Assembly: GCF_014199915.1 (NCBI RefSeq)
Contig: NZ_JACHOO010000005.1
Span: 1 to 64,000, forward strand
Length of the DNA stretch: 64,000 nt
Direction: 5' to 3'
From: Prosthecomicrobium pneumaticum
Lineage (GTDB): Bacteria > Pseudomonadota > Alphaproteobacteria > Rhizobiales > Kaistiaceae
This document shows positions 1-11,479 of this stretch, in pieces. Both the position numbers and the translations under genes were made by a program. The first letter of the stretch is position 1. Each line of letters begins with the position of its first letter. The notes below the pieces were generated by a model that worked only from the letters and a program-made list of their open reading frames with translations, made no database searches and was not told the DNA's origin.

Positions 1-94
1 CCTCGCCGACCGCCTCCACCCGGATCGTCGGCGTCCGCCGAACATAGGGCGCCAGCCGCGCGGCCGCCGCCTCGATCTCCGCGAGGCCGATCAT
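1..94 (-). CDS. Threonine/serine dehydratase-like PLP enzyme, N-terminus only
   Basis: Only the first 31 codons are inside the window; the gene continues beyond position 1. The start ATG overlaps the TGA of the upstream deacylase (ATGA), so the two are translationally coupled. The visible start, MIGLAEIEAAAARLAPYVRR followed by TPTIRVEAVGE, is the usual N-terminus of fold-type II PLP threonine/serine dehydratases. Pairing of such a dehydratase with a DoeB/EutE-type deacylase is known from ectoine/hydroxyectoine catabolism, where the dehydratase is called EutB. That assignment is inferred from context and not proved by 31 residues. Confidence 0.6.
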   Translation of the reverse strand, partial: MIGLAEIEAAAARLAPYVRRTPTIRVEAVGE

Positions 95-1179
95 GCGAAC
101 GCCCTCCGATAGGGCGCCGCGACGACGAGGCAGCAATTGCCCGGCTTCACCCGGCCCGGCTGGCGGCGGCCATAGAGGATGCCGTCATGGCCATAGGCGA
201 GTTCGACCGGCCGCTTCGCCGGATCGTTGAGGAAGTGGATGCGGCCCGCCGGCTGGCCGGCCGAGACCGGCGTGCCATTGGCATGGAAGGGCTCGAACAC
301 GCCGTCCTCGGTCGCGAGCACGAAGCCGTCCTGGCCGGGAATCTCGTAGAGCTTGGGCTCGTGGCGGAGCGGCGCGGCGTCTTCCGGCGGCAGCACGCCG
401 AGATGGGAGAGCACGTTGCGGGTGCCGCGCCGGCAGATGTCGAGCGCGTCGAGCGAGACCGTCCCGCCGCCCGCCATCTCGGTGCCGACGACGGTGAGGC
501 CCGCCCGCGCCGCCGAGGCCGTGGCGGTGCGCGGGTCGCCGCGATTGTCGATGACGACGATCATCGGCGCGTCGAAGGCGGTGACGGCGGCGACGTTCTG
601 CGCGTGCTTCGCCGGATCGGCGACCGGCTCGATCACCGAGGAGGGGATCAGATCGAGCGAGGAGCCGCCGGAATGGAGATCGAGGAAGGCATCGCCGAGC
701 GGGAACAGCGCGTCGTTGACGAAGGCCGAGATCTGCTGCGTCGCCGTGCCGTTCGCATCGCCGGGGAAGGTGCGGTTCATGTTGAGCCCGTCGATCGGCG
801 AAGTCCGGGTCGCGGCCATCACCGCCGGCAGGTTGATCGCCGGCACGAAGATCAGCCGGCCGGAGACGCGGCCGGGATCGAGATCGCGGATCATCTCGCC
901 GAGCGCGATCGGCCCCTCATATTCGTCGCCGTGATTGCCGCCCTCGAGGATGACGGTCGGCCCCTCGCCGTTCTTGATCACCGCGAGCGGAATGCGGATC
1001 ACGCCCCAGGCGTCGTCATGCGCCGAGAGCGGCAGGTGGAAGAAGCCGGTCTGCTTGCCGTCCTTCTCGAAATCCACCGTGCACTGCGTCGAGGCACTGG
1101 CCTTCCTCTTCGCCTGCGCTGCGGAGGAGAAGGAAGCGGGACGGTCCGGCGCCGCGGCGGGAGAGCGTTCTTCTATCAT
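91..1179 (-). CDS. Succinylglutamate desuccinylase/aspartoacylase (M14) family deacylase, DoeB/EutE-like
   Basis: A 362-residue zinc deacylase that probably removes an N-acyl group from an amino acid. Visible motifs are the zinc site GGNHGDE (His83, Glu86), NMNR (133-136) and the third ligand DLHSGG (His169). The segment NGEGPTVILEGGNHGDEYEG closely resembles N-acetyl-diaminobutyrate deacetylase DoeB/EutE of ectoine breakdown, but EctD/DoeA/EutC partners are not visible, so the substrate is unproven. It is divergent from the IclR gene and its stop overlaps the next start (ATGA). Oddity: the first ATG lies inside the 35-bp IclR-type element and has no Shine-Dalgarno, so the message may be leaderless or the true start lies further in. 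Confidence 0.75.
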   Translation of the reverse strand: MIEERSPAAAPDRPASFSSAAQAKRKASASTQCTVDFEKDGKQTGFFHLPLSAHDDAWGVIRIPLAVIKNGEGPTVILEGGNHGDEYEGPIALGEMIRDLDPGRVSGRLIFVPAINLPAVMAATRTSPIDGLNMNRTFPGDANGTATQQISAFVNDALFPLGDAFLDLHSGGSSLDLIPSSVIEPVADPAKHAQNVAAVTAFDAPMIVVIDNRGDPRTATASAARAGLTVVGTEMAGGGTVSLDALDICRRGTRNVLSHLGVLPPEDAAPLRHEPKLYEIPGQDGFVLATEDGVFEPFHANGTPVSAGQPAGRIHFLNDPAKRPVELAYGHDGILYGRRQPGRVKPGNCCLVVAAPYRRAFA

Positions 1180-1207
1180 TTATGATATCTGCCATTTATA
1201 TTTGATA
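1173..1207. promoter_or_regulatory. Putative IclR operator, copy 1
   Basis: A 35-bp AT-rich element beginning CTATCATTTATGATA and ending CATTTATATTTGATA. Its left part contains the palindrome TATCATTTATGATA, and the outer CTATCA/TGATAG ends are inverted. An element of the same length and spacing lies at 7293-7327. It sits between the deacylase and the IclR gene and covers the deacylase start codon, so the adjacent IclR protein is the likely ligand. Confidence 0.6.
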
Positions 1208-1282: not shown

Positions 1283-2164
1283 ATGGATTCGAAGCCGGCG
1301 AAGCCGAAGCGGTCGGCCGCGTCGCGGGGTGCGGCGGGCCATGGCGACGGGGCGAAGGGGGCGGCGAAGCCGGCGCCCGCGCCGAAGCCCGCCTACAGCG
1401 CGCCCGCGCTCGAGAAGGGGCTCGACGTGATCGAGCTGCTCGCCAGCCTCTCCGAGGGCGTGACGCCGAGCCAGATCGCCCAGCGCCTCGGCCGCTCGCT
1501 GCAGGAGGTCTACCGCGTCGTCGTTGCGCTCGAGCGGCGCGGCTATCTCGTCCGGCCGCCGGGCGAGGAGGCGCTGATCCTCTCGATGCGCCTGTTCGAC
1601 CTCGCCTCCCGCGTGCCGCCGCTCCGCCGGCTCGTCGACGTCGCCTGGCCGATCATGAACCGGCTGTCGATCGAGACCTACCAGGCGGTGCATCTCGCCG
1701 TGCTCGACGGCCTGTCGATCCGTGTCGTCAGCCAGGTCGACAGCCCGGCGCCGCTCGGCTTCCGGCTGCGCGTCGGCACGCAGAACCCGGCCGAGAAGAC
1801 CGCCTCCGGCCGCCTCCTGATGGCCTACCAGCAGCCGGCGGTCGAGGACTGGCTCTATGGCGCGATCGCGCAGAAGGACCCGAAGGCCGACATCGGCGCG
1901 CTGCAGGCCCGCGTCGCGGCGATCCGCGCCCGCGGCTGGGAGATGATCGAGGGCGAGCAGCTGAAGGGCATCGTCGATGTGAGCTTCCCGATCCTCTCCT
2001 CCTCGGGCTTCGCCTTCGCGGTGATCACCATGCCCTTCCTCTCCTCGGCGATGGAGCGGATGCCGGTCGATGCCGCGAGCCGCGTTCTGTTCGAGGCGGC
2101 CTCCGAGATCACGGCCCTCCTCGGCGGCACCCTCGAACGCCCGCGCTTCCCGCTCGGCAGCTGA
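1283..2164 (+). CDS. IclR family transcriptional regulator
   Basis: A 293-residue DNA-binding regulator. A charged, Lys/Pro/Ala-rich N-terminal tail (about 40 residues) precedes a winged helix-turn-helix (YSAPALEKGLDVIELLASL, then TPSQIAQRLGRSLQEVYRVV, about residues 38-75). The IclR effector-binding domain follows (ETYQAVHLAVLDG to the end), including the conserved KTASGRLLMA segment. The start was chosen because AGGAGG lies 6 nt upstream of this ATG; in-frame upstream ATGs lack it. The protein probably controls the divergent deacylase/dehydratase pair and, through a matching element at 7293-7327, the sugar uptake locus. Effector unknown. Confidence 0.9.
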   Translation: MDSKPAKPKRSAASRGAAGHGDGAKGAAKPAPAPKPAYSAPALEKGLDVIELLASLSEGVTPSQIAQRLGRSLQEVYRVVVALERRGYLVRPPGEEALILSMRLFDLASRVPPLRRLVDVAWPIMNRLSIETYQAVHLAVLDGLSIRVVSQVDSPAPLGFRLRVGTQNPAEKTASGRLLMAYQQPAVEDWLYGAIAQKDPKADIGALQARVAAIRARGWEMIEGEQLKGIVDVSFPILSSSGFAFAVITMPFLSSAMERMPVDAASRVLFEAASEITALLGGTLERPRFPLGS

Positions 2165-2589: not shown

Positions 2590-2937
2590 TCACGATCCGG
2601 CTCCGGCGAAGCGGAACACCTCGTCGAGCCAGAGCGGCTCGCCGTCTTCCGTCTGATAGCGCTCGAACAGCGGGAGGAGCGAGGCCGTCCAGGCCTTCTG
2701 GATCGCCGTCGCCGCCATGAAGGCGTTCGCGGCGGCGACGCCGTGCCGGGTGCGCATCCGGCCGACGACGATCTCGCCGTGCCGCCAGATGCGATAGTCC
2801 TCGATGCCCGCCGCGCCGATCGCCTCGAGCAGTTCCGGCCAGACCGCAGCGTGGCGCCGGTCGTATTCCGGCCCGGCGCCCGGCTTCAGGTGGTAGACGA
2901 ACTGCACATAGTCGCCGGGGGCGCTGTCGCGGCTCAT
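2590..2937 (-). CDS. L-rhamnose mutarotase (RhaM) family protein
   Basis: A 115-residue dimeric alpha/beta-barrel-like protein of the RhaM family, which interconverts anomers of L-rhamnose-type sugars. Recognisable features are the N-terminal QFVYHLKPGAGPEYDRRHAAVWPEL pattern (His near residue 29, Tyr 25), IEDYRIWRHG in the middle, and the C-terminal WLDEVFRF. It is the last gene of the importer operon, its ATG overlapping the TGA of permease 2. Membership in this family suggests that the imported sugar is a rhamnose- or fucose-like deoxyhexose, but such proteins also accompany other sugars. Confidence 0.8.
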   Translation of the reverse strand: MSRDSAPGDYVQFVYHLKPGAGPEYDRRHAAVWPELLEAIGAAGIEDYRIWRHGEIVVGRMRTRHGVAAANAFMAATAIQKAWTASLLPLFERYQTEDGEPLWLDEVFRFAGAGS

Positions 2938-3821
2938 CGCACAGCCCCCGCGATCGCGCCGGAGAGGATCTGGCGCTGGAACACGAAATAGACGAGCACG
3001 ACCGGCGCGAGCGCGATGACGAGGCCGGCCGAGACGAGCGGGATCGAAACGTCGTACTGGCCCGACAGGAGCGAGACGCCGACCATCAGCGTCTTGTTGT
3101 CCGAGCCGCCCATGATGACGAGCGGCAAGAGCAGGTCGTTCCACATCCAGACGAAGTTGAGGATCGAGATCGCCGCGATCGCCGGAAGCGAGACCGGCAG
3201 CATGATCGAGAACAGGATGCGCAGTTCGCCCGCACCGTCGAGCCGCGCCGCCTCGATCAGATCGTCCGGCACCGCGCGGAAATAGGCGGCGAGCAGATAG
3301 GTGCCGAGCGGCAGGCCGAAGGCGGCATAGGTGAAGATCAGCCCCTGATAGGTGCCGCCCATGCCGAAGGTCAGGATCGTTTCGTAGAGCGGGTAGATGA
3401 TGACCTGGCTCGGGATGACGAGCATCGCGATGATGAAGAGGAAGATGAGATTGCCGCCCCTGATGCGCAGCTTGGTCACGGCATAGGCGAGGAAGAGCGC
3501 GGCGACGGTGGAGATCAGGAGACCGCCGGCCGTGGTGACGACGCTGTTGAGGAGCAGCCGCGGCACGTTCATCCGTTCGAAGGCGGCGACATAGTTGTCG
3601 AGCGTCAGGTCGGCGGTGAAGCCGAGCGGGTTCTGCGCGAAATCACTGCGGCTCTTCAGCGAGGTGAGCAGGGTGAAGAACAGCGGATAGAGCGTCGCCA
3701 CCGCGAGCACGGTGAGGAGAAGGGTGACGAGCCATCGGCCGAGCGCGGAGGCGCCGAAAAGGGCGGAGCGGGCCGGCATCGCCGGCGCGGCGGCCGCGAC
3801 GGGGGAGGTTCGAACGCTCAT
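2934..3821 (-). CDS. Carbohydrate ABC transporter permease (MalG/UgpE type)
   Basis: A 295-residue inner-membrane subunit of a CUT1 sugar importer, with about six transmembrane helices. The cytoplasmic EAA loop reads EAARLDGAGELRILFSIMLP, where the missing ATPase would dock. Start and stop overlap the neighbouring genes by ATGA junctions (upstream permease and downstream mutarotase), so the operon is tightly coupled. A MalG-like periplasmic segment (SDFAQNPLGFTADLTLDNYV) follows the first helix. No ATP-binding subunit is encoded in this cluster. Confidence 0.9.
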   Translation of the reverse strand: MSVRTSPVAAAAPAMPARSALFGASALGRWLVTLLLTVLAVATLYPLFFTLLTSLKSRSDFAQNPLGFTADLTLDNYVAAFERMNVPRLLLNSVVTTAGGLLISTVAALFLAYAVTKLRIRGGNLIFLFIIAMLVIPSQVIIYPLYETILTFGMGGTYQGLIFTYAAFGLPLGTYLLAAYFRAVPDDLIEAARLDGAGELRILFSIMLPVSLPAIAAISILNFVWMWNDLLLPLVIMGGSDNKTLMVGVSLLSGQYDVSIPLVSAGLVIALAPVVLVYFVFQRQILSGAIAGAVR

Positions 3822-4759
3822 CGCGCCTTCGCCTTTCCTTCGGCATACATCCGCTTCACCACCAGCGCCGAGACGAGCGCGACGAAGACGAACAGCGCCA
3901 TGCCGATCGCCGCGCCCGTGCCGCGGTCGAGGAACTGGAAGGTGGTGGTGAAAACGAGATATTCGGGCAGCACGGTCGCGCTGCCGGGCCCGCCGCGCGT
4001 CAGCGCGTAAATGAGGGGGAACATCCAGATCAGGATGCCCGAGGTGCACAGCACCGTCCAATAGCCGATCACCGGCTTCAGGAGCGGGATCACGATCGAA
4101 ACGAGCATGCGCCAGAAACCGGCACCGTCGAGCCTCGCTGCCTCGAGCACCTCCTCGGACAGCGTCGCGAGGCCCGAGAGATAGGTGAGCACGCCGAGGC
4201 CGAAGAAGCTCCACAGCGCCACCGCGGTCAGCGAGAGCAGCGCGCTCGTCGGGCCGTTCAGCCACTCGATCGCGAGCGGCGCCAGGCCGACCGCGGTGAG
4301 CAGCGCGTTGAGCGGACCCTCCGGCGCCAGGATCTGGCGGAACATGATGCCGACGACGATCGGGGCGATCATGTAGGGGAGAAAGAAGGCGGCCCGGAAG
4401 ATCGTCCAGCCCGGCGATCTCTGGAAGATCAGGAAGGCGAGCACGAGCGGCAGCACGATCCACACCGGCAGGGTCGCGAAGGCGACGAGCGCGTTGCGGA
4501 AGGAATCGGCGACCGCCGGGTCGGCGATCATGCGGCGGTAATTGGCGAGCCCCGCGAAGGTCGGATCCTCGAAGCCCCGTGTCTCGTAGAGGCTGAGGAC
4601 GAAGCCGCGGATGAGCGGCACGAGCTTGAAGAGGATGGCGAGCGCCAGCCCCGGCAGCACGAAGAGGATGCCGATCAGAAGCTCGCGGCGCATCAGCGGA
4701 CGCTTCCGCGACGTCTTGCGCACGCGCGGCGGCGCGGCGGCAGGGGAGGCTGCGACCAT
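3818..4759 (-). CDS. Carbohydrate ABC transporter permease (MalF/UgpA type)
   Basis: A 313-residue partner permease. A basic, Pro/Ala-rich cytoplasmic tail of about 25 residues precedes the first helix (LLIGILFVLPGLALAILF). The EAA loop EAARLDGAGFWRMLVSIVIP sits near residue 215. It overlaps permease 2 by 4 nt and lies 61 bp downstream of the binding-protein gene. GAGG lies about 9 nt upstream of the chosen ATG; a second in-frame Met (MRRELLIG) near residue 23 is a possible alternative start. Confidence 0.9.
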   Translation of the reverse strand: MVAASPAAAPPRVRKTSRKRPLMRRELLIGILFVLPGLALAILFKLVPLIRGFVLSLYETRGFEDPTFAGLANYRRMIADPAVADSFRNALVAFATLPVWIVLPLVLAFLIFQRSPGWTIFRAAFFLPYMIAPIVVGIMFRQILAPEGPLNALLTAVGLAPLAIEWLNGPTSALLSLTAVALWSFFGLGVLTYLSGLATLSEEVLEAARLDGAGFWRMLVSIVIPLLKPVIGYWTVLCTSGILIWMFPLIYALTRGGPGSATVLPEYLVFTTTFQFLDRGTGAAIGMALFVFVALVSALVVKRMYAEGKAKAR

Positions 4760-4820
4760 CGCGAAGGACCTCGTCGGAGAAGAGGGCGGGGAGGCGCGGC
4801 GACGCCTCCCCGGATCGGCG

Positions 4821-6122
4821 TCAGCGCTTCGATGGGCTCGCCTCGAGCGCCGCCTGCATGCGGGCGGTCCAGTCGTCGACCGTCAGCCGGCCGAGCGCGA
4901 CCTCCTGCCAGCCGCGGGCGAGCGCGTCCGCTTCCTGGCCGGAGAGGAGAACGCCGGAATGAAGCGTCGGCTTCTTGATGATCTCGAGGATCTGCGACAG
5001 CGCCTCCGACTTCGGCAGCGACGCGGGGTCGACGTTCTTGTTGAGCGAGATGCCGCCGGCGACCGTGCTCAGGAGCGTGGCGTTCTCGGTGCTCGCCATG
5101 AACTTCACGAACTTGAACGCCGCCTCCTTCTTGCTGCTCCAGGAGGTGACGCCGAACACCGAGCTCTCGATGCCGGAGAAGCTCTGCGCGAGCGGGGCGT
5201 CGGCGACGAGCGTCGGCCAGCGCATCGCGCCGACATTCTCGTCGCCGAGCGCCGCGCCGAAGGCCGACCAGTTGACCGCGTCCGAGATGATCGTGCCGGC
5301 AAAAGCCGCATTGCCGCTCTGGAAGATGTCGGCGCCGTCCGGCAGCATGGTGATCGACGGCGCCGAGGCGTTCGCCCAGCCCTTCTCGGTGATGCTGGCG
5401 AGGCCCTTCAGGACATTGACCATTTTCGGATCGGTCCAGGGCAGGCCGCCCGAGAGCATCGCCCGCATGTCCTCTTCGGTCAGATAGTTGCGGGCGATCT
5501 CGGGGAAGTCCCAATAGGCCGGGAAGATGCCCGACAGGCCGAGCGCCAGACAGGTCTTGCCGATCGCCTTCACCTTGGCGCAGGCGGCGTCCATCTCGTC
5601 CCAGGTCTTCGGCGGATTGGCGGGGTCGAGCCCGGCCTCCTTCAGCACCGCCTTGTTATAGTACATGACGTTGCCCTGATAGCCGAAGGGCAGGCCGTAG
5701 CAGGTCTTCGTGGTGTCGAAGCCGAGGCAGCCGCCGCTATAGGTGATCAGCTGTGCCTTCGCCTCGTCGAGCACGTCGGCGGGCAGCGGCTCATAGGCGA
5801 CGCGCCGGTCGAACAGTTCGAGACCGGCATTGTTCTCCATCACGTCGGGGCCGCTCTTCGTCGTGATGTAGGGACCCTGAACCTCCGGATAGCGGTCGAA
5901 GGGCACCGTCTCGAGCTCGACCTTGACGTCGGGATTGGCCTTCTCGAAGGCCGCGACGAGCTCGGTCCAGTATTTCGTGCCGCCGGGCTCCCAGTTGAGC
6001 ACGCGGATCGTCGTGACCTCCTCGGCCACGGCGCCCTGCAGCGTCGCCGCCAGGGCAAGCCCGGCACAGGCCAGCGAAAGGCCGCGCAGAAGACCGCGCA
6101 GGCGGCCGGTCGTCTCGATCAT
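4821..6122 (-). CDS. Extracellular sugar-binding protein of the ABC importer (family 1)
   Basis: A lipid-free periplasmic binding protein of about 433 residues. The N-terminus MIETTGRLRGLLRGLSLACA is a basic then hydrophobic signal peptide with a likely cut after AVA before EEVTTIRVLNW. The mature part shows the SBP-1 pattern (WTELVAAFEKANPDVKVELE, YGLPFGYQGNVMYYNKAVL, PKTWDEMDAAC). Three close ATGs exist (6137, 6128, 6122). The third was chosen because GAGGGA lies 7 nt before it. The adjacent permeases and glycoside-processing genes suggest an oligosaccharide or glycoside ligand. Confidence 0.88.
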   Translation of the reverse strand: MIETTGRLRGLLRGLSLACAGLALAATLQGAVAEEVTTIRVLNWEPGGTKYWTELVAAFEKANPDVKVELETVPFDRYPEVQGPYITTKSGPDVMENNAGLELFDRRVAYEPLPADVLDEAKAQLITYSGGCLGFDTTKTCYGLPFGYQGNVMYYNKAVLKEAGLDPANPPKTWDEMDAACAKVKAIGKTCLALGLSGIFPAYWDFPEIARNYLTEEDMRAMLSGGLPWTDPKMVNVLKGLASITEKGWANASAPSITMLPDGADIFQSGNAAFAGTIISDAVNWSAFGAALGDENVGAMRWPTLVADAPLAQSFSGIESSVFGVTSWSSKKEAAFKFVKFMASTENATLLSTVAGGISLNKNVDPASLPKSEALSQILEIIKKPTLHSGVLLSGQEADALARGWQEVALGRLTVDDWTARMQAALEASPSKR

Positions 6123-6193
6123 CGTCATTTCCCTCATCCCTCTCTCATTTCGCCGGCGGGGCTGTTCTTCTCGCGCCGGCGGTCGGCGGAAGT

Positions 6194-7264
6194 TCAGACC
6201 GGCTCCGGCACGACACCGCCTTGGCGGCTGGCGAGCAGGCAGGCATCGACGAGCGCCATCGTGCGCACCGAATCGTGCACGTCGGTGTCGAGCACGGCGT
6301 CCTCGCCGCCGACGAAGCGCTGCAGGTTCGACATCACGGCGCCGAAGGCGTCGGGCACCCGTTCTCCGACGAGCGGCACCGGCGTCCAGTCGCGGCCCTC
6401 CGTGATGATCTCGAGCTTTTCGGGGACCGGCTTCAGGTAGTCGATCAGATAGCCGAGCGTCAGATGCGCACAGCCCCTCGTGCCCTCGACGCGGATCGTC
6501 GCCTCGACGTGCTTCGGCCCGTAATTATAGGTGTGGTTGAGCGACAGGCAGCAGCGCGCCTTCGCGCCGAAATCGAGGATGATGCTGCTGCGCGCATCCT
6601 TGAGGTCGGGATAGCGCGGATGCGGCACCGCCTTCGCGTAGACGCTGTCCGGCTCGCCGAGGATCGAGCGGATCCAGTCGAGATAGTGGATCGAGTGGAG
6701 CGGGATCTCGACCGCGTGCATGCGCGGGATGAAGGCCCACATCTCCCAGGGCATATAGACGGCGAGCCGCACCTCGAGCTCGACCACGTCGCCGAGCAGG
6801 CCCTGCCGCACCGCATCGCGGATGGCGAGCATGGACGGCGTGAAGCGGAGCTGGAAATTGGTCGCCGCCGTGATCTTTCGCGCGTCGATCGCCGCGACGA
6901 TCGCCCGTGCGCCGGCGAGATCGGCGCCGAGCGGCTTCTGGATCAGCGCCGCCGCGCCCTCGGGCAGTCGCTCGACGGTGGCGAGGATCGCATCGGGCGG
7001 CAGGGCGAGGTCGAACACCGTGTCGGGCTCCCGCGCCGCGATCGCGGCCTCGAGGCTCGGATGGACGACCGGCACGCCGAAATCGGCGGCGAGCGCCTGC
7101 GCCTTCTGCGGATCGACATCGAACACGCCGGCGACCGGCAGGCCGATCTTGCGATAGGCCGGCAGATGCGCGTCCCGCACGATGCCGCCGGCACCGATGA
7201 TCGTGATCGGCCGCGGCTTCGAGGGAAGCGGCCAGGTTTGAGCGAGTTCGAGGCCGGCCTGCAT
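6194..7264 (-). CDS. Gfo/Idh/MocA family NAD(P)-dependent oxidoreductase
   Basis: A 356-residue sugar dehydrogenase. The Rossmann fold begins ITIIGAGGIVRDAHLPAYRKIG (about residues 20-40), followed by the family motif KPLGADLAGARAIV (here IQKPLG) and the C-terminal beta-sheet domain. Such enzymes typically oxidise C1 of a pyranose to a lactone or a ring hydroxyl to a ketone. The start was set at the ATG with GGGGAG 6 nt upstream; the longer reading would run into the regulatory element at 7293-7327. First gene of the minus-strand importer operon. Confidence 0.85.
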   Translation of the reverse strand: MQAGLELAQTWPLPSKPRPITIIGAGGIVRDAHLPAYRKIGLPVAGVFDVDPQKAQALAADFGVPVVHPSLEAAIAAREPDTVFDLALPPDAILATVERLPEGAAALIQKPLGADLAGARAIVAAIDARKITAATNFQLRFTPSMLAIRDAVRQGLLGDVVELEVRLAVYMPWEMWAFIPRMHAVEIPLHSIHYLDWIRSILGEPDSVYAKAVPHPRYPDLKDARSSIILDFGAKARCCLSLNHTYNYGPKHVEATIRVEGTRGCAHLTLGYLIDYLKPVPEKLEIITEGRDWTPVPLVGERVPDAFGAVMSNLQRFVGGEDAVLDTDVHDSVRTMALVDACLLASRQGGVVPEPV

Positions 7265-7292
7265 CGTCGTCTCCCCGGAAACGGCGTCGTCA

Positions 7293-7327
7293 CTATCACA
7301 TACGATAGACGACATTGATATTTGATA
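7293..7327. promoter_or_regulatory. Putative IclR operator, copy 2
   Basis: A 35-bp element starting CTATCACATACGATA and ending CATTGATATTTGATA. It aligns without gaps to the element at 1173-1207, most strongly in CTATCA, GATA and ATATTTGATA. It lies in the divergent promoter region between the Gfo/Idh gene (start 7264) and the glycosidase-like gene (start 7428), well placed to control both transcripts. Confidence 0.6.
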
Positions 7328-7427
7328 ATTGATGCGCGATCCTTGTCAAGGAAGTGCGAGGCAGGACCCGGAAGTGCGACACACGGCCCGGACGCGAAGC
7401 ACGGCGCATGGAGCGAGGGAGGGAAGG

Positions 7428-9080
7428 ATGACGGAGCGCGGGACGGTGACGATCGGTGGCAGGGTCGTGCTCGCCGGAGCGGCGCAGCATCCGCATGCGG
7501 CGCGGCGCCTGCGCGAGGCCCTGCCCCGGCTCGATCTGGTGCCGGAGGGCGACGGGCTGCCGCGCATCACCCTCGCCGAGGATGCTTCGCGCGCCGAGGG
7601 CGCCTTCGCCCTCTCCGTCGGGCCGGCGGAGATCGCCGTGTCGGGCGGACCGTTCTCCGGCGTCATCTACGGCGTCGAGGAACTGATCGCCGCCGCCCGG
7701 CCGCAGGACGGTGGTTATCGCCTGCCGGCCGGCGAGAGGCGCGCGGCACCCGGCCTCGCCCATCGCGCCTGGTGGACCTGGGACCACTCGACCAATTGGG
7801 AACTGTCCCAGATCGGCCATCAGGAGATCGGCGTCTTCAATCCCTATGGCAAGCCGCCGGAGGGCTTCCTCGCCGACTACAAGCGCGCCGTCGACTTCGC
7901 CAGCCGCAACCGCATCGCGGCGATCATCATCTATGGCTTCCTGCGCGATTCGCATGGCGGCATCGAAGCGGCGCAGGAGCTCTGCCGCTACGCCCGCGAG
8001 CGCGGCGTCCGCATCATGCCGGGCATCGCGATCGGCGCCTATGGCGGCGTCTACTGGGAGGGCGACCACCGCTTCAACCTCGCCAGCTGGCTGCACGCCA
8101 ATCCGGCCTTCGCCGCAACGCTCGAAAAGGGCATCGGCTTCCAGATCCAGGATCTCGACTTCCCCCTGAGCTTCCCGCGCAGCGACTACACGCTGTCGGC
8201 CTGCCCTTCGCGGCCGGAGACGATGGACTGGATGACCGATGCGGTCGCCTGGCTCGCCGAGACCTTCGCGATCGGCGGCATCAACATCGAGAGCGGCGAT
8301 TACGGCGTCTGCGGCTGCGCCCGTTGCAACGCCCGGCGCGCGGCGCGCGAGGACGGCAGCCGCCGCGCCGGCGACGCCGAATCCTGGTCGCACGCCGACA
8401 TGGCCGACAATTTCCCGCGCCTCTTCGAGGCCGCGTCCGCCAGGCGCGACGACCTTTGGCTCTATTGCGAGCTGCAATGGGACAATCTGCTCGATCCCGC
8501 CGCCCATGAGGCGCTCGCCGCGATGCCCTCGGGCGGGATCTACCAGCACACCGTCAACCGCTCCTATTGGGCGAAGCTGCGCGAGGGCCTGTCGCGGGCC
8601 GATGTCGAGCGCCTGCCGACCCAGCCCAACATCCTGCGCTGCCAGTTCGCGAGCCAGTGGAACGGCGACCGCCGCACCGAACGCTACGCCTTCAACGCCA
8701 AGGCCTTCGCCGACATGGCGACGACCGGCGCGGCGCTCGGCATGAAGGGGCTGACCGTCTGGGGCGAGGCCTCGCCCTATCACGCGACCGTCGAACTCGG
8801 CTATCGCGCCTTCGCCCGCTTCTCCTATGACCCGAGCCTGACCTGGGATGCCTTCATGGCGGAGGATGCCGCCCCGATGCTCGGCGGCACGGCCGAGGCC
8901 GAGCGCTTCGTCGCCGTCGCCGAGGAGCTCGATGCCAATGTGGAACTGCCGGCCGAGCGCCTGAAGACGCTTTCGGCCATGGCGCACGAGGCGGGCGCCG
9001 GGGCGCGGGAGGACGCGGTCGCGCGGCGCTGGCTGAGCCTCGAGGACCAGATCGCCCGCCGCCGCTTCATGGGCCGCTGA
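7428..9080 (+). CDS. Glycoside-hydrolase-like protein (GH67/GH20-type N-domain plus barrel), substrate unknown
   Basis: A 550-residue protein without a signal peptide, so it acts in the cytoplasm. Residues 1-105 resemble the small alpha/beta domain that precedes the catalytic barrel in GH67, GH20 and GH84 enzymes (FALSVGPAEIAVSGGPFSGVIYGVEELI, 60-87). The remainder looks like a TIM barrel. NIESGDYGVCGCARC (286-300) places Glu288 before a Cys-x-Cys-x2-Cys cluster, and WGEASPYHATVELGY is near residue 445. Glu288 is a candidate catalytic residue, which is inference. GGAGGGAAGG precedes the ATG. It is followed 1 nt later by the lactonase-type hydrolase. Exact family not recognised. Confidence 0.65.
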   Translation: MTERGTVTIGGRVVLAGAAQHPHAARRLREALPRLDLVPEGDGLPRITLAEDASRAEGAFALSVGPAEIAVSGGPFSGVIYGVEELIAAARPQDGGYRLPAGERRAAPGLAHRAWWTWDHSTNWELSQIGHQEIGVFNPYGKPPEGFLADYKRAVDFASRNRIAAIIIYGFLRDSHGGIEAAQELCRYARERGVRIMPGIAIGAYGGVYWEGDHRFNLASWLHANPAFAATLEKGIGFQIQDLDFPLSFPRSDYTLSACPSRPETMDWMTDAVAWLAETFAIGGINIESGDYGVCGCARCNARRAAREDGSRRAGDAESWSHADMADNFPRLFEAASARRDDLWLYCELQWDNLLDPAAHEALAAMPSGGIYQHTVNRSYWAKLREGLSRADVERLPTQPNILRCQFASQWNGDRRTERYAFNAKAFADMATTGAALGMKGLTVWGEASPYHATVELGYRAFARFSYDPSLTWDAFMAEDAAPMLGGTAEAERFVAVAEELDANVELPAERLKTLSAMAHEAGAGAREDAVARRWLSLEDQIARRRFMGR

Positions 9081-9081
9081 G

Positions 9082-9981
9082 ATGGCGCTGCGCGATGCCG
9101 AGGGGCTCTATGCCGGCCCGATCATCGACCCGCACCACCATCTCTGGGACCGCGCGCTCGGCCGGCACGCCTGGCTCGCCGCGGCGACCGAGCCGCCGCT
9201 CGCGCAAAACCAGCTGCCGGCCGACTATCGCGCCGCCGCGGCCGGACACGACGTCGTCGCCACCGTGCATGTCGAGGCCGCCTGGGACGCGGACGACCCC
9301 GATGGAGAGGTGCGCTGGCTCGACGCGCTCGACAAGCCGGACGGCATCGCCGCCCGCTACGTCGGCCATGCCGCCCTCGCGCACCCCGATGTCGAGGCGG
9401 TGCTCGCCCGTCACGGCGCGCACGAGCGGATCGTCGGCATCCGCGAGATCCTGAGCTGGCATCCCGATCCGGCCCGCGCCTTCGCGAAACGCCGCGACAT
9501 CATGAACGACGCCGCCTGGCGCCGCGGCCTCGCCCTGCTGCCGCGCTACGGCCTCTCCTTCGACCTGATGATCACGCCATGGCAGGCGGAGGATGCCGCC
9601 CGCCTCGCCGCCGATTTCCCCGACATCGCCTTCGTCCTCAATCATTGCGGCAGCCCGATCGACCGCGACGCGGACGGCATGGCCCGCTGGCGCGCCGGCC
9701 TCGCCCGGCTCGCCGAAGAGCCGAACGTCGCGATCAAGATCTCCGACCTCGTTGCCTATGATCCGCGGCCGACGCTGGAGAGCCTGCGCGCCGTCGTGCT
9801 CGCCTGCATCGACGCGTTCGGCACGGAGCGGGCGATGTTCGCGAGCGACTATCCGGTCGTCGCGCTCCACGCCGGCTTCGACGAGACCTACACCGCCTTC
9901 AAGCGGATCGTCGCCGGTTTCAGCGATGCGGAATGCACCGCCCTCTTCATCGAGAACGCCCGCCGGATCTATGTTCGCTGA
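9082..9981 (+). CDS. Amidohydrolase family protein, COG3618 (L-fuconolactonase/sugar lactonase type)
   Basis: A 299-residue metal-dependent hydrolase. The metal motif DPHHHLWD (16-23) is typical of the COG3618 group, whose known members open sugar lactones such as L-fucono- and L-rhamnono-1,5-lactone. Further signatures are VLNHCGSPID near 190, KISDL near 225 and the terminal ASDYPV with Asp. The ATG is 1 nt after the preceding stop, so it is co-transcribed with the glycosidase-like gene. Together with the Gfo/Idh dehydrogenase it suggests oxidation of a released sugar to a lactone followed by ring opening. Its 3' end overlaps the convergent MFS gene by 35 bp. Confidence 0.8.
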   Translation: MALRDAEGLYAGPIIDPHHHLWDRALGRHAWLAAATEPPLAQNQLPADYRAAAAGHDVVATVHVEAAWDADDPDGEVRWLDALDKPDGIAARYVGHAALAHPDVEAVLARHGAHERIVGIREILSWHPDPARAFAKRRDIMNDAAWRRGLALLPRYGLSFDLMITPWQAEDAARLAADFPDIAFVLNHCGSPIDRDADGMARWRAGLARLAEEPNVAIKISDLVAYDPRPTLESLRAVVLACIDAFGTERAMFASDYPVVALHAGFDETYTAFKRIVAGFSDAECTALFIENARRIYVR

Positions 9982-11149
9982 TGGCGCGGCGGTGGCGGAG
10001 GACGAGCGCGCCGAGCGCCGCGAGCGCGGCGAGCGACAGCCCGGTGGCGATCAGGAGCGCGGCATCGCTGCCGCCCTGCGAGAGGATCGCAGCGAACAGC
10101 GGCGGCGCGCAGGCGAAGGAGAGGTTGAGCGGCAGCGCGAGCATCGAGGAGGCGCGCGCATAAGCCTCGGCCGGGAACAGATCGAGCGGCATGGTCGACC
10201 GGGCGACGGCGAGCACGCCGCTCGTCAGGCCGTAGAGGGTGACGAAGCCGATCGCGGCGGGCGTGCCGCTGCCGAAGATGAGCATCGAGAAGGAAAGCGG
10301 CAGGCAGGCCGCGGCGGCGAGGCCGGTGGTGAGGCTGTTCCAGCGCCGGCCGGCGGCGAAGTCGACGAGCCGCGCCGAAAGGGCCGCGAGCCCCGTGAAG
10401 GAGGCGACGCCGACCGCCGTTGCGTGGTCGAGGCCGCGCTCCTCGAAGAGCCGGATGAGGGTGAGCGAGAACCCCCAGGTGACGACGCCGTTCGCCGCCA
10501 TGGCGAAGGCGAGCAGCGCGAGGGCTGCCCGGTCGATCGCTGCCGCCGCGGGCGCTTCGGCCCTCGGGCCGCCGGCGGCGCGGCGCGGCAGCAGCAATCC
10601 GTAGATCGGCCCCGCCACCGCGAGCAGCGCGAACGCGCCGGCGAGTGTCGCCGAACGCCAGCCGAACGCCGCCTGCAGCGCCCCGAGCACCGGCCAGCAG
10701 AGCGTGGTTCCGAGCCCGCCGAACACCATCAGGGCGCCGACCGCGCGGCGCGCCGTCGTGCCGGCGAGTGCCGCAAGGCCGATCTGGATCGCGGTCGTGA
10801 GCATCGCGGCACCGCCGGCGCCGACCAGGAGCCAGCCCGCGAAATACGCCGGGGCCGCGGTCGCGGCCGCGATCACGGCGAGGCCGAGGGCCCCGACGAC
10901 GACCCCGGCGGTCATCACGCGGCGAATCCCCCACCGCTCGAAGAGCCTCAGCACCGGCACCGCGGCGAGCGCCATGACGACGAGCATGACGGTCGGCCCC
11001 GCCATCACCGCCGCGTAGGAAAGCCCGAGAGCCTCGGCCATCGCGGCGCCGGCGACAGCCGGCAGATTGAACGTCGTGCCCCAGCAGACCGCCTGCGCCA
11101 GCGCGAAGGCGGCGACGATGAGCGGAAGGCGAAGCCGCGATTCGGACAT
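9947..11149 (-). CDS. MFS transporter
   Basis: About 400 residues with twelve hydrophobic segments. The family loop between helices 2 and 3 reads RLFEWGIRR-like (LRLFERWGIRRVMTAG). The central cytoplasmic loop (PRRAAGGPRAEAPAAAAIDRA) is near residue 200 and a basic tail follows the last helix. No substrate is evident. The start was placed at MSESRL; two in-frame upstream ATGs exist and none has a clear ribosome site. It converges on, and slightly overlaps, the lactonase-type gene, and faces away from the decayed region to its right. Confidence 0.8.
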   Translation of the reverse strand: MSESRLRLPLIVAAFALAQAVCWGTTFNLPAVAGAAMAEALGLSYAAVMAGPTVMLVVMALAAVPVLRLFERWGIRRVMTAGVVVGALGLAVIAAATAAPAYFAGWLLVGAGGAAMLTTAIQIGLAALAGTTARRAVGALMVFGGLGTTLCWPVLGALQAAFGWRSATLAGAFALLAVAGPIYGLLLPRRAAGGPRAEAPAAAAIDRAALALLAFAMAANGVVTWGFSLTLIRLFEERGLDHATAVGVASFTGLAALSARLVDFAAGRRWNSLTTGLAAAACLPLSFSMLIFGSGTPAAIGFVTLYGLTSGVLAVARSTMPLDLFPAEAYARASSMLALPLNLSFACAPPLFAAILSQGGSDAALLIATGLSLAALAALGALVLRHRRAISEHRSGGRSR

Positions 11150-11479
11150 CGGAACACGGGGCATGACGCTGCGATCGACCACACCCGCATTTCAACCGCG
11201 TGACGGTGCGTGCCTCGCGGGAAGCGGAGGCGGCCACCCGCCGGGACGCTCCCGGGACATGATCCGCCCAGAGCGGCTCGATCGGGAGGGTGTCGGCGGC
11301 GCGCTGGACCGGCACCGCGATCGCCCCGCCGCCATGCGGCAGGGGACGCGTTTCGCGAACGGACTGGATTGGGCGCCACGCCTTGGGTCGCACCGCTCCC
11401 TGCGCATGAGCGAAAGGCGCGTGCGATAAAGGTGCTCGTTCAGCAGGGCCGCGGGATCAGCGCCCTCTACCGTCGGCGA
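11150..11479. other. No convincing gene
   Basis: About 330 bp between the MFS start and the first recognisable coding remnant. I see no RNA gene, palindrome or conserved coding pattern. Base composition still matches the chromosome. Confidence 0.5.

Follow-up and report, generated by a model that had tools for sequence, protein, structure and literature searches.

A putative regulon for oxidative catabolism of a 2-acetamido sugar glycoside, built around a distinct glycosidase-like family in Prosthecomicrobium pneumaticum

Gene content and organization of the locus

At one end of a contig of Prosthecomicrobium pneumaticum, a sugar importer is encoded beside a cytoplasmic glycosidase-like protein, an oxidoreductase, a lactonase-type hydrolase and a mutarotase, which raises the question of what compound such a gene set takes up and degrades. 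We analyzed the first 64,000 nucleotides of the contig (NZ_JACHOO010000005.1; here, the window), whose left edge is the contig start. Pfam and NCBIfam profiles placed all seven genes of a first-pass annotation where it had put them and in the families that it had named (Table 1). The divergent arrangement that it described was also borne out: the mutarotase, permease, solute-binding protein (SBP) and Gfo/Idh genes run leftward, with gene ends overlapping or close, and the glycosidase and COG3618 hydrolase genes, one base apart, form a rightward operon. For the Gfo/Idh gene, a start at 7264 is more likely than one at 7315. The unit is larger than the region considered then (2590-9981), since the deacylase gene, the IclR gene and the 5' end of the lyase gene, all on the left, had been missed.

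Table 1. Features of the putative regulon in the window
Feature	Position	Strand	Remarks
PLP ammonia-lyase, threonine-dehydratase-like	2..94	-	First 31 codons (MIGLAEIEAAAARLAPYVRRTPTIRVEAVGE...), truncated at contig start
AstE/AspA-family deacylase	91..1179	-	PF24827, 128 bits; nearest model DoeB (N-acetyl-diaminobutanoate deacetylase)
Operator A, 34 nt	1174..1207	+	Deacylase/IclR intergenic region; one of two matches in the genome
IclR-family regulator	1283..2164	+	PF01614 and PF09339; position kept in Kaistia, Devosia and Rhizobium
RhaM-family sugar mutarotase	2590..2937	-	PF05336
CUT1-type ABC permease 2	2934..3821	-	PF00528
CUT1-type ABC permease 1	3818..4759	-	PF00528
Sugar-type SBP	4821..6137	-	PF01547/PF13416
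Gfo/Idh/MocA oxidoreductase, proposed aldose 1-dehydrogenase	6194..7264	-	PF01408/PF02894/PF22725
Operator B, 34 nt	7294..7327	+	Intergenic region of the divergently oriented Gfo/Idh and glycosidase genes; shared by 11 genomes
Cytoplasmic glycosidase-like protein, unnamed family	7428..9080	+	GH20b-like N-domain, TIM barrel, helical C-domain
Amidohydro_2/COG3618 hydrolase, proposed lactonase	9082..9981	+	PF04909; relative of L-fucono-1,5-lactonase

The mutarotase passed the PF05336 cut-off (66.8 bits, cut-off of 23.4) and fell short of that of the TIGR02625 equivalog (32.5 bits, cut-off of 99.6). For the COG3618 hydrolase, the nearest NCBIfam model was L-fucono-1,5-lactonase (NF052480), at 116.1 bits against a cut-off of 400. 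Import without an ATPase had been singled out before, and the cluster indeed has no ATPase gene, but this is ordinary rather than odd, because the genome holds suitable shared ATPases elsewhere (at least eight of the MalK type, 50 to 65% identity). A MalK-type ATPase is present within the homologous clusters of Devosia and Rhizobium. Past the right end, a convergent gene for an ArsK-like MFS transporter (9947-11182) shares 35 bases with the lactonase-type gene at the latter's 3' end; the relatives' clusters contained no match to it.

At the left edge, the lyase start overlaps the deacylase stop (ATGA), and full lyase orthologues adjoin the deacylase gene in Kaistia, Devosia and Rhizobium. The deacylase, for which 1077 is possibly an alternative start, scored 297.8 bits with TIGR02994 (DoeB/EutE), below the cut-off of 402.7. 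A full-length lyase orthologue in locus L028 matched the fold-type II PALP domain (PF00291) with 250.7 bits and stayed below the curated cut-offs of the EutB, BhcB and IlvA equivalogs (for EutB, 222 against 413), while general serine/threonine dehydratase models scored higher than EutB (278.6). The deacylase and the lyase both belong to families of L-amino-acid enzymes. Contig C11 terminates in the 3' end of the lyase gene, and contig C14 opens with a near-identical one; the two (L061 12324-12629 and L062 1-207) share ca. 98% DNA identity over 200 bases and have different downstream genes. They probably stem from a recent duplication, which would have interrupted the assembly at the left edge of the window.

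Operators and the IclR-family regulator

The intergenic regions between the Gfo/Idh and glycosidase genes of 11 genomes have in common a roughly palindromic 34-nt sequence. A pattern built from both window sites had only these 2 matches in the 4.65-Mb genome at up to 3 mismatches; that the two sites themselves show zero mismatches is so by construction, which is not the case for the absence of others. With a matrix derived from the 10 other genomes, leaving the window out, the same two sites ranked at the top of the 64 kb (43.0 and 24.2 bits), and the next nonoverlapping site scored -4.1 bits. Operator A was equally clear in L042, L048 and L049, three close relatives, moderate in Devosia, and weak in L035 and L043; the weak sites count against the interpretation given below. 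Given that this second site adjoins the IclR gene, the IclR protein is likely the regulator of the operons, with predicted binding at both 34-nt sites. A sigma-70 scan of the divergent promoter gave no match.

The gap between the IclR and RhaM genes (2178-2589) holds two 170-nt direct copies, 85% identical, composed of GC-rich palindromes (CCCTCTCCCGCGGGCGGGAGAGGG). They resemble an intergenic repeat element, and inspection of L061 by eye showed a comparable sequence near 6000-6330.

A distinct family of glycosidase-like proteins

The glycosidase-like protein had been described as being of unclear family, and it did lack a match to any Pfam catalytic family. Neither PF07555 (NAGidase, at E ≤ 1) nor the GH20 catalytic domain PF00728 matched it. 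PF00728 was not found in the rest of the genome either; the same held for PF07555, a weak absence since the positive control gave no match. The N terminus scored 25.3 bits with the GH20b domain PF02838, just under the cut-off of 26.1 (15 of the 27 family members match at E ≤ 1), and the profile matches to hexosaminidases were weak (E values of 0.0014 to 0.035).

For the AlphaFold2 model (pLDDT of 86.7, pTM of 0.89), Foldseek ranked GH20, GH138 and GH84 enzymes, and the best match from a second structure aligner, spanning the whole length, was to GH84 O-GlcNAcases (Z of 22.5, rmsd of 4.1, 420 aligned residues, model range of 3 to 550). The model shares the three-domain fold of GH84, with a GH20b-like N-domain, a TIM barrel and the helical C-domain of GH84, but identity to GH84 and GH20 enzymes is only ca. 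15%. GH138, described in the Foldseek list as targeting pectin rhamnogalacturonan II, also has this architecture, a point against the amino-sugar reading proposed below. Strand 4 of the barrel ends in the invariant E288, followed by S, A or G at position 289, and the invariant E348 and E447 lie on strands 5 and 8; D119, D291 and C295/C297/C300 are invariant as well. The strand 4 motif of GH84 homologues is FDD, and the adjacent carboxylate pair (DD/DE) of GH84 and GH20 is absent from the glycosidase-like protein, in a register set by strand order rather than by superposition, as the profile-profile alignment came in short pieces. Since this pair is missing, there is no support for substrate-assisted N-acetylhexosaminidase chemistry. 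Together with the unmatched catalytic domains, the replacement of the pair sets the protein apart as a distinct family.

The N terminus contains nothing signal-like by eye. Across Alphaproteobacteria, Actinobacteria and Chloroflexi, identity within the family is 55 to 72%. The protein is rare: it was found in 1 of 385 genomes sampled across the class, namely, that of the window itself, and in 16 of the 61 genomes in a search of close relatives that included its own. Among plasmid records, no homologues were found.

Conservation and replacement of the cluster genes

The block of lyase-deacylase, IclR, (RhaM)-permeases-SBP-Gfo/Idh and glycosidase genes keeps the same order in Kaistia, Devosia and Rhizobium (L042 to L049 were counted as Kaistia by kinship and because L046 and L035 are the same region). 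Within 9 kb of the glycosidase gene, a deacylase was encoded in 27, a PLP enzyme in 26 and a sugar dehydrogenase in 28 of 41 loci, which are phylogenetically nonindependent. The cluster of Devosia subaequoris (L024) has in addition an SDR, a MalK-type ATPase and RidA; RidA also occurs in L013 and L014.

In five actinobacterial loci (L020, L021, L027, L031 and L041), the same glycosidase is accompanied by a ribose-type ABC transporter and RhaM, together with a different Gfo/Idh protein, a different Amidohydro_2 protein, an M20 ArgE/DapE-type deacylase (230 bits, above the cut-off of 217.6) and a class-V PLP enzyme. Judged by their families, these nonhomologous or distant replacements appear to fill the same roles. 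Along similar lines, the deacylase of L030 and L039 is an M20D protein, and in L034 (Chloroflexi) a class-I aminotransferase and an Azf-like NAD-dependent dehydrogenase are encoded beside the glycosidase. Such role-for-role replacement (C1 oxidation, lactone opening, deacylation and removal of an amino group) makes the strongest case for the proposed pathway.

Other loci fit less well with an amino sugar. L025 and L030 have a galactonate-dehydratase-like gene beside the glycosidase, superfluous for a 2-acetamido sugar, and in several loci the glycosidase is found without the other cluster genes, although some of these are short contigs; both findings count against this reading. In one locus only (L021), the glycosidase gene is followed by a 2,4-didehydro-3-deoxy-L-rhamnonate hydrolase-like (FAH) gene and an SDR gene, and genes similar to these two occur elsewhere in the genome of the window.

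Further neighbors were noted. In close relatives, the region just past the glycosidase gene holds a gene of the tryptophan halogenase family or a GH4 gene accompanied by ABC ATPases (L045 6794-8338, L042 11445-12815). The cluster of an actinobacterial MAG (L039) encodes, between the lactonase-type and SDR genes, a 438-amino-acid protein (9084-10400) that matched nothing in Pfam or NCBIfam. In L015, L016, L052 and L053, where no RhaM was found, genes for a FucU-type L-fucose mutarotase and a ribokinase adjoin the glycosidase or lie close to it; we considered this pair as a replacement of RhaM, and it may be a separate operon.

Proposed pathway and alternatives

Oxidized at C1, a 2-acetamido sugar is an N-acetyl-alpha-amino acid, and after deacylation it is a 2-amino-3-hydroxy acid. 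Serine/threonine dehydratases handle 2-amino-3-hydroxy acids; here the product would be a 2-keto-3-deoxy acid, and RidA hydrolyzes imine/enamine intermediates. From the coregulated deacylase and ammonia-lyase we infer that the pathway handles an N-acyl amino acid as well, and we favor glycoside import, intracellular cleavage and oxidative catabolism of a 2-acetamido sugar, a reading of gene families to which we give a probability of roughly 0.6. The whole-length structural likeness of the glycosidase to GH84 O-GlcNAcases, the Foldseek ranking and the weak hexosaminidase profile matches also speak for it. The SBP and two permeases, with a shared ATPase, would import the glycoside, which is probably a di- or small oligosaccharide and from which the cytoplasmic glycosidase would free a 2-acetamido-2-deoxy sugar. 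The RhaM-type mutarotase could provide the right anomer for C1 oxidation to a lactone by the Gfo/Idh protein, and the COG3618 hydrolase would open the ring to give an N-acetylhexosaminate. The DoeB-like deacylase would then take off acetate, and the PLP ammonia-lyase (with RidA in some relatives) would convert the resulting alpha-amino-beta-hydroxy acid (hexosaminate) into a 2-keto-3-deoxy sugar acid that enters a general route. IclR would govern every operon by way of the two 34-nt operators. The sequences establish the gene families, their clustering across genomes, the common operators and the glycosidase architecture; the reactions, their order and the substrate are predictions.

The earlier proposal of a plain rhamnose- or fucose-like glycoside that is imported, cleaved inside the cell, oxidized at C1 and ring opened keeps its sequence of steps, which is still the simplest one. 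As to its substrate, the RhaM family, the fuconolactonase relative and the FAH/SDR pair of L021 speak for a deoxyhexose, but the deacylase and ammonia-lyase, like the actinobacterial M20 and PLP enzymes, would be left idle and their coregulation unexplained, and the regulon has no deoxyaldonate dehydratase; we consider this substrate improbable. The absence of a kinase and an aldolase, pointed out before, holds for the window cluster, which lacks an aldonate dehydratase as well, and all three absences would be explained if the acid of the released 2-acetamido sugar is itself an alpha-amino acid.

The same enzymes and their coregulation would also be accounted for by a glycoside of an N-acyl beta-hydroxy amino acid, the sugar going to the Gfo/Idh protein and lactonase and the aglycone to the deacylase and lyase, whose family takes in serine/threonine dehydratases; the aldonate-dehydratase-like gene of two loci agrees with this. 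However, in most loci, the window cluster included, aldonate dehydratase, kinase and aldolase are missing, so that the sugar half would reach a dead end, and we know of no widespread natural product of this type. We regard it as rather unlikely. The 2-acetamido sugar ranks above both of these substrates because it puts all the enzymes to linear use without an aldonate dehydratase. Another sugar-plus-amide compound, such as an N-glycoside or an ectoine-like molecule, seems very improbable: DoeB/EutE is the nearest named model of the deacylase, the lyase matches EutB models, and the two families stand side by side as in ectoine/hydroxyectoine degradation, yet both proteins score far under the cut-offs given above, general dehydratase models fit the lyase better, and sugar genes take the place of ectoine-specific enzymes, with neither ectoine hydrolase nor EutC in the cluster.

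Within the 2-acetamido sugar reading, the L-amino-acid-type families of deacylase and lyase would fit the other C2 configuration, as in L-FucNAc, L-QuiNAc or ManNAc, an analogy that is suggestive only. These families, the fuconolactonase and RhaM relatives and the FAH and SDR genes of L021 lead us to guess, weakly, at a 6-deoxy L-sugar such as L-FucNAc; sugars of this type are found in bacterial surface polysaccharides. It is doubtful, if conceivable, that the locus represents an undescribed complete intracellular oxidative route for glycosides of a 2-acetamido-2,6-dideoxy-L-hexose (L-FucNAc type), initiated by a glycosidase that founds a new glycoside hydrolase family and put together from unrelated enzymes across phyla.

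Comparison with known systems

In the Ong route of Pseudoalteromonas, the sugar acid GlcNAc1A arises by extracellular LPMO oxidation of chitin and is freed by the periplasmic GH20 enzyme OngA; OngB, a D-aminoacylase relative, deacetylates it, OngC, a putative D-amino-acid deaminase, deaminates it, the RidA protein OngD is essential, and an SSS transporter and KdgK take part (PMC9537276). The likeness, predicted from genes on the window side, lies in the deacetylation of an N-acetylated sugar acid, PLP-dependent deamination to a 2-keto-3-deoxy acid, RidA, a dedicated repressor and an upstream glycosidase. In contrast, the window has a CUT1 transporter, a cytoplasmic glycosidase of a new family and an intracellular dehydrogenase and lactonase; its deacylase is of the AstE/AspA family, not that of OngB, and the lyase family differs too. 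A literature search, with subscription papers outside its scope, found no such pathway described beyond Ong.

Nonphosphorylated oxidation of L-fucose and L-rhamnose likewise proceeds through a mutarotase, C1 oxidation with NAD and a COG3618 hydrolase of the fuconolactonase type, whereas the window cluster has a deacylase, an ammonia-lyase and a glycosidase and no aldonate dehydratase.

Implications

Although its families look ordinary, the locus is a well-supported regulon, and it plausibly encodes a new form of oxidative amino-sugar breakdown. An uncharacterized glycosidase family, so far from Alphaproteobacteria, Actinobacteria and Chloroflexi, is now tied to a defined enzyme set and an operator, and its substrate and chemistry are therefore directly testable. 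If true, the proposal would add a nonphosphorylated amino-sugar route without NagA and NagB, and the DoeB-like and EutB-like genes of these bacteria could be reannotated.
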